NCBI GenBank assembly: GCA_017557405.1 | Contig: JAFYYV010000003.1 | Span: 27,873 to 91,872, forward strand | Length of the DNA: 64,000 nucleotides | Direction: 5' to 3' | From: Prevotella sp. | Lineage (GTDB): Bacteria; Bacteroidota; Bacteroidia; Bacteroidales; Bacteroidaceae | Part shown: piece by piece, positions 1,067 to 59,997 of the stretch | Layout of the letters: every line of letters starts with the position of its first letter | Numbering within the stretch: position 1 is the first letter of the stretch | Position numbers and translations under genes: made by a program | The notes under the pieces: generated by a model | Told to the model about the DNA's origin: nothing | The model's input: the letters and a program-made list of their open reading frames with translations, nothing else | Databases searched by the model: none

Positions 1067-1149
1067 TCAAAGCTATGCAATGAGGGGCTCAAAGCTATGC
1101 AATGAGTCGGTCAAAGGATATAAATGACACTGTCAAAGTTATGCAATGA
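1067..1149 (+). repeat. 22-nt periodic TCA-N11-TGA array, cluster 1 (4 units)
   Basis: Units of 17 nt lie at 1067-1083, 1089-1105, 1111-1127 and 1133-1149. Each begins TCA and ends TGA and is separated from the next by exactly 5 nt. Units 1 and 2 are identical (TCAAAGCTATGCAATGA); the other two vary inside. The array starts 36 bases after the CotH-like stop codon. Confidence 0.9.
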
Positions 1150-16388: not shown

Positions 16389-16474
16389 CGATTAACCTTC
16401 TTTTTCAATTCGTATGTTCTCACGAACACAATGCAAAATTACTAATTGTGTGCAACACACAAAAGCTTTCCCGC

Positions 16475-16800
16475 TGAAAAAACACGACAAATTTTTGTCG
16501 ACTTTTCCCTCCAATCTAGAAAAGAAAAACGTGTGAGAAAACCGTTTTTCCACTCCAATTTGCTCATTTCCCACACCCGAAATTGTCACATGTGGCATCT
16601 GAGGCTCTCATAGCTATGCTTTGACCCGCTCACATGTGGCATCTGACGCCCTCATATGCCACATCTGACAAGCTCATTGCATAGCTTTGACCCGCTCATT
16701 GCATAGCTTTGACAAAGCCAATGAATGTAAAGAAAACGGAAGTCACTGGTTATCAACAACTTCCGAAATCGCTCGTTTTCCGCGTATTTGCCCACGAGGA
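16475..16800 (+). repeat. Composite intergenic element, copy A
   Basis: In order: a GAAAAAACACGAC segment, a palindrome CGACAAATTTTTGTCG (16485-16500), CAATCTAGA (16512-16520), the 22-nt array (16586-16712), GTAAAGAAAACGGAAG, then TCAACAACTTCCG, and CGCGTATTTGC-CACGA. The same blocks, in reverse complement and in the same order, occur at 42970-43310. The two copies are clearly related but diverged, except in these blocks. No coding capacity is evident. Confidence 0.75.
16586..16712 (+). repeat. 22-nt periodic TCA-N11-TGA array, cluster 2 (6 units)
   Basis: Units lie at 16586-16602, 16608-16624, 16630-16646, 16652-16668, 16674-16690 and 16696-16712, with exact 5-nt spacers. Cores include TCACATGTGGCATCTGA (twice) and TCATTGCATAGCTTTGA (twice). 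The latter is the perfect reverse complement of the main unit of cluster 1, so units occur in both orientations. Confidence 0.92.
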
Positions 16801-17076
16801 ACTTTTTTTTCAGAAAACGAGCCTTCTCGTGGCACCAAAAATCAGAATTATCTTGACAAATCTTTGGTTTGAGTAATATAGATTGTTTTCTCTAAGGAAC
16901 TGCTTTCTGAGAACAAAGAACAATTATTCATGAACATTTCACGGCCATTCGTGTAGAATAAACGTGAATGCCCATCCATCTACGCGAGATTTGGTGGAAC
17001 TCACAAGCAAACGATTCGTTAGCAGACGATTGTGAATTAGTAGTTTCTGACTTCATTGTTTTCAGGTGTGCCATTC
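16801..17076. other. Upstream region of groES
   Basis: No gene is seen. The stretch TTGACA (16853) followed after 15 bases by TAATAT resembles a sigma-70 promoter of the E. coli type, but this is weak evidence in a Bacteroidetes genome. Nothing else is recognised before the palindrome at 17077. Confidence 0.4.
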
Positions 17077-42873: not shown

Positions 42874-42969
42874 TATCTGCCTCCTGAAAGGTTTTGAGTG
42901 GGCTTTCAATTTTGTCAAGAAAATTCAGAATTTAGGGCCCTCAAAAAGGCCATCGTTTTGAAATAATTC

Positions 42970-43310
42970 TCATTCGTGTGCAAATACGCGAATTTTGAGC
43001 ATAGAACGGAAGTTGTTGACAATCAACAGCTTCCGTTTTCTTTACATTTTATGAACTTGTCAAAGCTATGGAATGAGGTTGTCAAAGCTATGGAATGAGC
43101 TTGTCATAGCTATGCTTTGAGGGCGTCAAATGCCACAAGTAAGCGGGTCAAAGCATATCTTTGAGGGGCTTACATGCCACATGTGACAATTCTACAGTTG
43201 AAAAATGAGGAAAAAGAAGCATCAATATGGTCTTTTCCCTCATTTTTTCGTTCTAGATTGCATGAAATAGTTGACAACTTTTCGTCGTGTTTTTTCAAAA
43301 GAAAAAACCG
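42970..43310 (-). repeat. Composite intergenic element, copy B
   Basis: This is the inverted relative of 16475-16800. TCTAGATTG (43252-43260) and GTCGTGTTTTTTCA (from 43284) are separated by 23 bases, exactly the distance in copy A. On the other side are the CGGAAG/CTTCCG hairpin, GTAAAGAAAACGGAAG (minus strand) and CGCGTATTTGC-CACGA. Confidence 0.75.
43060..43186 (+). repeat. 22-nt periodic TCA-N11-TGA array, cluster 3 (6 units)
   Basis: Units lie at 43060-43076, 43082-43098, 43104-43120, 43126-43142, 43148-43164 and 43170-43186, all with 5-nt spacers. The first two are identical (TCAAAGCTATGGAATGA). The fourth ends TAA and the last begins TTA, the only departures from the TCA/TGA ends in this cluster. 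Confidence 0.9.
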
Positions 43311-59197: not shown

Positions 59198-59280
59198 TCA
59201 TTTGTGACTTTTGAGCCTGTCAAAGACCATCTTTGAGCAGACCAAAGCTAAGCAATGAGGAGGTCAAAGATGGTTTATGG
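59198..59280 (+). repeat. 22-nt periodic TCA-N11-TGA array, cluster 4 (4 units)
   Basis: Units at 59198-59214, 59220-59236, 59242-59258 and 59264-59280 keep the 5-nt spacers. The second unit (TCAAAGACCATCTTTGA) has complementary arms. The third begins CCA and the fourth ends TGG, so this cluster is the most decayed. Confidence 0.82.
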
Positions 59281-59359
59281 CGCAGCCATAGCAAAATATG
59301 CAGAAATAGGGCGATTTCATGATAATCCTTAACGAATGTTAAATCAACTCGGGCAAATA

Positions 59360-59590
59360 GTGACAAAGTGACAAAGTGACAATAAGGTGTTTTCGACCTG
59401 CCGAGGCGCATGAAGTGTGAATATTACAATTATAAATTGAAGATTTGGGTACACAAAAATGAAATGAGTGTAATATTACTAATTTTATTATAATATATAA
59501 TATCAATATTATATATTATAATAACACATGATAGAGGGGTGCGCTTGAACAAAATGAAAAGTGCTTAATGTCACTTTGTCACTTTGTCAC
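59360..59590. repeat. Perfect inverted GTGACAAA repeats around an AT palindrome
   Basis: GTGACAAA is iterated with a 9-base period in 59360-59381, and 59569-59590 is its exact 22-base reverse complement. Between them 59485-59503 and 59506-59524 form a perfect 19-bp AT-only inverted repeat with a two-base loop (59504-59505), which could extrude as a cruciform. Confidence 0.88.
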
Positions 59591-59997
59591 TTTTCATTTT
59601 ATTTGCATCCGAGGTCATGGCTAGTCTTTGCATTTTCCTCTCCAATCTTTTGTTGTTCTAGAAATAGTTTTTCTATCTCGTTTGAAGTAAAAAAAAGTGG
59701 AAGGAGTATAGCAGATTGTAGGGGTTATAAATCGTAAGTGTTAAAAAAACGAGGTGAAAAACGGGGGTGTAGAGAGCGAAAATGGGGCGATAAATGGCAA
59801 AATTAGCCAAAAAATCGAGCGAAATCGCGATTTATTGAACTCAAACCCCCGAAAATCGAGCACTAAAATCAAGGTTGGAAAGTGGTTTCAGATTGAAAGG
59901 GGAATATATTTATTTAGTTTCCCGAAAATCATCTATCTTTGACTTTGTCGAAGAAAACCTGCTTTATAGCCGTCCCTTAAAAAGGGACTCAAAATGT

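Follow-up and report, generated by a model that had tools for sequence, protein, structure and literature searches.

Intergenic clusters of 17-bp dyad units on a 22-bp period in the Prevotella group suggest chromosome marking by an undescribed protein system or by a mobile element

Four short repeat arrays lie in a 64,000-nt stretch (the window) of the genome of a Prevotella sp. (G000; 3.56 Mb, 54 contigs), and they raise the question of what holds their units at one strict spacing and what such arrays might do. The original prediction described four arrays with 20 units in all, each unit of 17 nt and each spacer of 5 nt; the number, the positions and the spacing all proved exact. The arrays, and the longer elements that surround two of them, are as follows.

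1067..1149, forward strand: array 1, class B; four units of 17 nt with 5-nt spacers, head to tail, all TCA...TGA, intergenic
16474..16862, no strand assigned: class A element around array 2, about 390 bp, conserved in other Prevotella MAGs
16586..16712, no strand assigned: array 2, class A; six units in mixed orientation
42911..43307, no strand assigned: class A element around array 3, missing from the orthologous interval of G586
43060..43186, no strand assigned: array 3, class A; six units, outer triplets perfect in four, in a convergent interval
59198..59280, no strand assigned: array 4, class B; four units, outer triplets perfect in two

Sixteen of the 20 units have a perfect TCA...TGA frame and the other four are off by one base (the unit at 43126 ends in TAA, that at 43170 starts with TTA, that at 59242 starts with CCA and that at 59264 ends in TGG); a degenerate unit lies in phase with array 2, at 16564-16580. 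Chance is a poor source for this pattern, as the window contains 11 perfect two-unit windows and each of 100 dinucleotide shuffles of it contains none. The arrays had been regarded as one family, and a common 17+5 plan does unite them, but two kinds can be told apart: a conserved element of about 390 bp encloses arrays 2 and 3 (class A) and is absent around arrays 1 and 4 (class B). In blastn, the element around array 2 matches loci of the MAGs RGIG7148, RUG11493 and RGIG6979 at 69-89% over 373-398 bp. MITE-like elements were also seen near some arrays (1261-1578 and 59356-59594 of the window; also in L004, L037, L063, L071 and L080); their centre is AT-rich, and their terminal inverted repeats consist of short words, 7-9 bp long and repeated in tandem, which vary from copy to copy (GTGACAAA, TGCAACAT, ATATAACA).

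The same pattern is found throughout the genome. There are 183 matches to TCAAAGCTATGCAATGA (at most one mismatch) and 142 three-unit windows of TCA-N11-TGA-N5, and the reversed control of each search gave 0. Many of the matches lie 100-400 bp from contig ends (e.g., in C11, C12, C30, C33, C40, C44 and C50); assembly therefore seems to break at repeats beside arrays. Spacing was examined in 81 stretches of this genome (80 plus the window; 357,160 bases), which were chosen for TCAAAGCTATGCAATGA or for three-unit windows, only the latter criterion presupposing the spacing. Among their 388 perfect TCA-N11-TGA motifs, distances of up to 70 bp were 22 bp in 189 cases, 44 bp in 135 and 66 bp in 82, and five other distances occurred once each. 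The spacer was 5 nt in 189 of 190 adjacent perfect units. The prediction of a spacing fixed beyond chance is thus borne out, and it is the length of the spacer that is fixed while its sequence is free: 135 oriented TCAAA-N7-AATGA units are followed by 45 distinct spacers. Class A accounts for 20 of 71 arrays in G000; within its element, six or seven units follow a fixed order, and the flanks of the element are also conserved, both in G000 and in other named Prevotella MAGs. Class B, which comprises all other TCA arrays, has mostly four or five units and is often preceded by TTG and followed by CAA. Class B flanks are not all unique, the next 100 bp being common to another array in 26 of 51 cases and the next 600 bp in 32 of 51; nearby MITE-like repeats account for part of this sharing, as perhaps do decayed units.

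A second issue is how far this architecture extends. Three-unit TCA windows were present in nine of 150 genomes of the genus, G000 included, with only one or two windows in three of the other eight. A slightly longer pattern was present in nine of 399 genomes of the family, again with G000 included and with one or two windows in seven of the other eight; G497, in the family set, has 17 TCA windows. A four-unit scan of 84,980 species gave at least 99 matches. Among the 80 matches listed, 75 are named Prevotella, Prevotellaceae, Hallella, Phocaeicola, Bacteroides, Bacteroidales or Bacteroidetes, and five belong elsewhere; the cultivated carriers Hallella mizrahii and Phocaeicola oris are among the matches. 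Viruses were considered as carriers and rejected, with three viral contigs in the whole viral collection. TCA arrays of different species keep their outer triplets and the 17+5 plan but vary in their inner letters.

Other outer triplets occur on the same plan. The reversed TCA control matched in a few genomes, and this led to the discovery of AGT-N11-ACT arrays with identical spacing (30 windows in G118, where the arrays are near-perfect tandem copies, and 15 in G032; reversed control 0). G586, the genome of MAG RUG11493 and the nearest relative found, with orthologous flanks mostly 72-87% identical, carries TCA arrays together with GTA-N11-TAC arrays (25 two-unit windows with at most two mismatches, control 0); G000 has none of the GTA type. 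CAA-N11-TTG forms 99 three-unit windows in G061 (main contig 2.69 Mb; control 0) and none in 11 other genomes, and the pairs in G061 lie 88 times at 22 bp, 52 times at 44 bp and 17 times at 66 bp, every other distance up to 70 bp being found fewer than six times. TAA-N11-TTA forms 23 windows in G016 (at most one mismatch, control 0). A CTC/GAG type hinted at by one array of G026 was sought in 12 genomes and dropped, with 0 of 12 containing it; the reversed control AAC-N11-GTT has five matches in G026 and six in G003, which may be further outer-triplet types. The architecture, which the original prediction proposed to look for in related Prevotella genomes, does recur there, but its description as TCA-N11-TGA was too narrow: the constant is the 17+5 dyad plan, not the outer triplet, since other genomes use CAA, GTA, AGT or TAA.

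A sequence-agnostic scan of stretches not selected for arrays gave a similar result. With coding arrays counted as well, a tandem period of 22 or 44 bp was the commonest. It was seen in 7 of 17 arrays from 21 stretches of the genus (two could not be scanned because of their length), in 3 of 4 from 12 stretches of the family (one likewise unsuitable in length) and in 1 of 3 from 20 stretches that represent other families of the order; the remaining two arrays of this last set have a period of 23 bp. Shuffled sequence gave no arrays. Some of the 22/44-bp arrays have, by eye, no dyad form. Another common period in scans of this kind was 14 (2 x 7), with words such as ATTGTCA or ACTGTCA, for example in stretches L195 and L215.

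A unit consists of a 7-nt half, a 3-nt centre and another 7-nt half, the halves being drawn from a small lexicon in each genome. The outer triplets are dyad-symmetric, the phasing is constant and the spacer sequence is free, as in a cluster of operators for a dimer. As a test for hairpins, we asked if the two halves of one unit match more than randomly re-paired halves. The match is no better than random for G061 and for 8 of the 10 TCA groups; in the two largest groups, G000 and G586, pairing exceeds random at positions 6/12 and 7/11 and not at 4/14 and 5/13. Halves that appear to be read independently, joined to an invariant outer triplet, would best fit a dimeric protein, and the protein predicted to sit on each unit is kept, as a putative dimer, in the best model. 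Arrays fold better than dinucleotide shuffles of themselves (mean z of about -2.8 for 55 class B and -3.5 for 16 class A arrays; -4.7 for 100 arrays of other species), but the symmetric outer triplets alone may cause this; a structural role is conceivable. Structured RNA was rejected as an account: Rfam at the gathering threshold has 0 matches in the window and the pairing test speaks against it in most groups, although the folding scores speak for it.

Several properties only become visible when more than one window is considered, namely mutual avoidance of the arrays, a bias to the 3' ends of genes, replacement of one site type by another in phase and a link to mobile DNA. Avoidance is evident in three genomes. 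The shortest of the 71 distances that separate arrays of three perfect units in G061 measures 7,895 bp; under random placement, about 8.7 gaps below 5 kb are expected, and the observed minimum was reached in 0 of 5,000 trials (4,000 more were run). With less strict units, gaps of 5.0-14.8 kb were measured in 21 stretches of G061 that had been selected because they contain listed arrays. In G000, 1 of 46 gaps is below 5 kb against 8.2 expected (P 0.0008), on an incomplete list of places, some degenerate, that have the exact word or three perfect units (among 100 matches listed) on contigs with at least two; the stretches analysed contain 111 of the 142 perfect triple windows. In G586, 0 of 18 gaps are below 7.5 kb against 5.7 expected (P 0.0003) when one two-unit GTA pair, which has a class A element 375 bp away, is excluded, and 1 of 19 against 6.3 expected (P 0.002) when it is included.

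The arrays are also extragenic. With a crude gene caller, 70 of 71 arrays in the 81 stretches of G000 are intergenic, as anticipated from the window, and genes overlap 1 of 38 arrays in G061 and 0 of 21 in G586. Convergent intervals, which make up about a fifth of intervals, contain 39 of 117 placed arrays (14 of 37 in G061, 8 of 21 in G586 and 17 of 59 in G000, where 11 of the 71 arrays could not be placed in an interval), while divergent intervals hold 5, 4 and 16 arrays, respectively. In tandem intervals, 39 of 53 arrays are nearer the 3' end (14 of 18 in G061, 7 of 9 in G586 and 18 of 26 in G000). There is, therefore, a bias to gene 3' ends.

Whether array positions are conserved, as the original prediction proposed to check, has a mixed answer. 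In G586, where the 400 kb compared were not chosen for this purpose, 18 of the G000 arrays have a flank match of at least 200 bp; eight with a unique flank were counted, and ten were excluded because the flank match was to a dispersed repeat or weak. Three of the eight intervals contain an array of another type or class (L060 on both flanks; L031 and window array 4 on one), with a class A element and a two-unit GTA array in the interval that matches array 4. Two more have an array nearby with a gene between (window array 2 and L049). The other three have no array (L037 and window arrays 1 and 3), and the interval orthologous to array 3 has no class A element and contains a terminator-like hairpin. 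Chance would give about 6%, by rough arithmetic from 21 arrays in roughly 350 G586 intervals. A CRISPR-like array adjoins a class A element at about 3300-4300 of L169, in G586.

A change of site type within a kept register was found in G000. A TAA search of G000 gave 8 windows and a reversed control of 17, because the same arrays fit the pattern in another register; they represent a second type, with the unit [CT]AAAATA-N3-TATTTT[AG] plus 5, found in nine places of G000 (25 windows with at most three mismatches, control 4) and nowhere in the window. Each of the five places inspected has four units of this type, and decayed TCA units flank the block on both sides in the same 22-bp phase. When the five arrays were pooled over registers -3 to -1 and +4 to +7, the mean best match to G000 TCA units was 11.8 of 17 at phase 0 as compared with 7.1-8.6 at the other 21 phases; this signal peaks in L357 and L358, and L359 shows it weakly. 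In the second type, 12 of 17 unit columns are invariant (2.0 bits), partly by construction as the units were found by pattern, whereas spacer columns have 0.1-1.25 bits and 18 of 20 spacers are distinct; with units invariant and spacers nearly free, the blocks are unlike fresh copies of one another. The in-phase nesting shows that the site type was replaced while the register was kept. Two of the nine second-type arrays lie less than 5 kb from a TCA array, and inclusion of this type in the spacing analysis of G000 gives 3 of 55 gaps below 5 kb against 10.3 expected (P 0.0037). In L359, a gene resembling, by eye, that of an HU-type DNA-binding protein lies beside the second-type array.

For the GTA arrays of G586, loci were obtained for seven of the 11 listed places. 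In L263, L264, L265 and L270, an end unit resembles a G000 TCA unit more closely than do all 400 background positions, and in L275 more closely than all but two of them; the end units of L267 and L272 have no outstanding likeness to G000 TCA units. Four of the seven loci share their interval with a TCA array of G000 (L060 and L076 on both flanks, L012 and L031 on one). The GTA arrays of L265 and L270 lie between inverted-repeat arms like those of a terminator or MITE end (GGGGCTGTGTCA...TGACACAGCCCCTTTT in L270).

Neighbouring genes provide few clues. The 581 proteins whose genes lie within 2 kb of arrays include no recurring family: the largest cluster is present in six loci, and the 25 largest of those listed look like ordinary genes. 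A neighbour gene was on this ground rejected as the partner of the arrays. Y1 (RAYT-type) transposases are associated with REP/BIME elements, and a Y1 gene is present in 9 of 12 genomes, being absent from the array-bearing G586 and G032 and from G003. All three Y1 genes of G016, one of them frameshifted, are within about 0.5 kb of a TAA array; the Y1 element is common to 5 of 15 array loci and lies between two arrays in L363 and L365, while 10 of the 15 loci share no flank with another. The Y1 genes of L362, L363 and L375, which adjoin TAA arrays, have inverted flanking repeats. These genes tie a REP-type transposon to arrays in one genome, as a rider, a target seeker or a maker of them. Of the 12 Y1 loci examined in all, the 10 that come from genomes other than G016 show no array of the type known for their genome. 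Flank sharing in G061 is limited (4 of 38 arrays over the next 100 bp and 9 of 38 over the next 600 bp; none within 600 bp for 29 of 38). In orthologous comparisons, no terminal inverted repeats or target duplications were seen by eye, the flanks being too diverged for a clean empty site, and synteny was lost when the interval of L017 was sought in 119 relatives.

The original prediction was aware of no described family of this form. A literature search, with most subscription journals outside its scope, found no 17+5 arrays, and the matches listed for the HU superfamily contained nothing on arrays. The nearest families, as far as the accessible parts of the sources go, are BrickBuilt (PMC4596501), PINSR (PMC4755523), the REP families (PMC3733652) and repeats in a P. 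gingivalis resequencing paper, and the form is absent from those parts. BrickBuilt, a MITE minisatellite of Porphyromonas gingivalis, is described there as being, like the arrays, intergenic, dispersed, species-restricted within the Bacteroidales and of nearly equal tandem period, and it resembles class A in having repeats within an element with conserved flanks; its 19 copies have a 23-nt repeat with no spacer, within-element indels of 0-6% and IS5-type terminal repeats (PMC4596501, in part). The arrays differ in their 22-bp period, 17+5 form with a free spacer, near absence of length errors and far greater number of loci. Ends of the IS5 type (GAGACCTTTGCA-like, at most two mismatches) occur four times in the window against a shuffle mean of 6.2, with none within 2 kb of arrays. 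PINSR, a 188-bp repeat of Prevotella intermedia, is likewise intergenic and lineage-specific, with about 180 copies and, in the text available, no terminal repeats; it is described as a single 188-bp repeat (PMC4755523). REP/BIME elements share with the arrays an extragenic, clustered and at least partly palindromic nature and a location downstream of coding sequence, between convergent and unidirectional genes; the available account gives them 20-40 bp palindromes with GTAG or CGTC tags (PMC3733652). Inner halves that mostly pair no better than chance and a fixed 22-bp register distinguish the arrays, and the Y1 link holds for G016 but not for G586 and G032, which have arrays and no Y1 gene. 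The sites of matS, parS, Noc and SlmA are dispersed palindromes for a dimeric protein, mostly single and conserved in sequence; the arrays are also dispersed, but form phased clusters of species-specific sequence. Iterons of plasmid origins are sites of 17-22 bp at two-turn spacing, while the arrays have many loci, dyad units and no recurring neighbour gene.

Our tentative preference, held at rather less than even confidence, is that the arrays are clusters of dimer sites for fast-changing DNA-binding proteins that would organise the chromosome or insulate transcription units. A cluster, mostly of four to seven 17-bp dyad sites, would bind a sequence-specific dimer at each site, with the dimers two helical turns apart on one face of the DNA and binding cooperatively. 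Each genome has one or two site types, distinguished mainly by the outer triplet, and thus probably as many cognate proteins, the specificity of which would change fast. Between genes there are from some dozens to roughly a hundred clusters of this kind, biased to the ends of transcription units and mostly several kb apart; since these phased sites are away from promoters, a role in chromosome domains or the insulation of transcription units is suggested. A change in specificity would lead to replacement of units in place and in phase. Against this proposal are the failure to find a cognate protein, the gain or loss of arrays between G000 and G586, the often shared flanks in G000, the Y1 linkage in G016, the negative folding scores and the two second-type arrays close to TCA arrays. 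A strong rival, though a less probable one, is that non-autonomous mobile elements instead carry or target the arrays and insert near gene ends with target immunity, moved by Y1 in G016. Class A is indeed an element that is dispersed and conserved in its flanks, flank sharing extends to about half of the G000 arrays outside class A (in many cases with MITE-like elements), array sites differ between G000 and G586, and in G016 every Y1 gene adjoins a TAA array and the Y1 element recurs among the array loci, twice between arrays; a transposable element with target immunity would account for the distances between arrays, for their gain and loss, for the flanks in common and for the findings in G016. 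Most arrays of G061 and most array loci of G016, however, share no flank, and the order of units (in G061) and the spacers are scrambled with the units intact, which is not what copying from one master would leave. New site types arise in phase inside old arrays, array-bearing G586 and G032 have no Y1 gene, no array of the known type was seen in the Y1 loci of other genomes, and the element of G016 may insert at arrays rather than make them. Both readings may apply together, with the arrays as host sites exploited by mobile DNA.

Other explanations are less probable. Hairpins like those of REP/BIME elements, acting as RNA or cruciforms at mRNA 3' ends, in terminators or as gyrase targets, would suit the convergent and 3' placement, which the available part of one source reports for REPs too (PMC3733652), the folding scores of -2.8 to -4.7 and the Y1 genes beside arrays in G016; as inner halves pair no better than re-paired ones in most TCA groups and in G061, and exceed random only at the two innermost of the pairs named above in G000 and G586, we consider this improbable. 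Neutral minisatellites spread by slippage would explain the near-perfect tandem copies of G118, but they are a still weaker candidate, since units are conserved next to free spacers, length errors hardly occur, the lexicons are genome-wide and arrays avoid one another. Species-specific 22-bp tandem sites (17+5) resemble plasmid iterons, and the arrays could on that ground serve to titrate a replication initiator of plasmid or chromid type; 71 arrays of three perfect units along one 2.69-Mb contig and the lack of a recurring neighbour gene render this very improbable. It is hardly credible that the arrays block translation by stop codons in six frames. TCA and TGA at a period of 22 (1 mod 3, with TGA on both strands) do give six-frame stops in the window, where several deviations are TTA or TAA, but AGT/ACT, CAA/TTG and GTA/TAC arrays keep the plan without those stops and contradict it as a general account.

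The clusters of dimer sites that we tentatively favour would, on a broader and rather unlikely view, be a bacterial counterpart of satellite-based marking, in which fast-evolving dimers coat clusters and divide the chromosome into domains, and the clusters persist while their sequence is renewed in layers. New types would arise in phase in the middle of an old array, as satellites do at centromeres, driven by a race in which the sites, the protein that binds them and mobile elements living off the arrays take part. Should the arrays be mobile elements instead, these would keep strict helical phase, let their spacers vary freely, change their site types and show apparent target immunity, and would also be undescribed in the literature searched. 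If the arrays are clusters of dimer sites, abundant bacteria of the gut, rumen and mouth would possess chromosome-wide, phased site clusters that obey a rule of several kb between them. They would offer a handle on the organisation of Bacteroidales chromosomes and a bacterial model for the co-evolution of repeated DNA and its reader protein.
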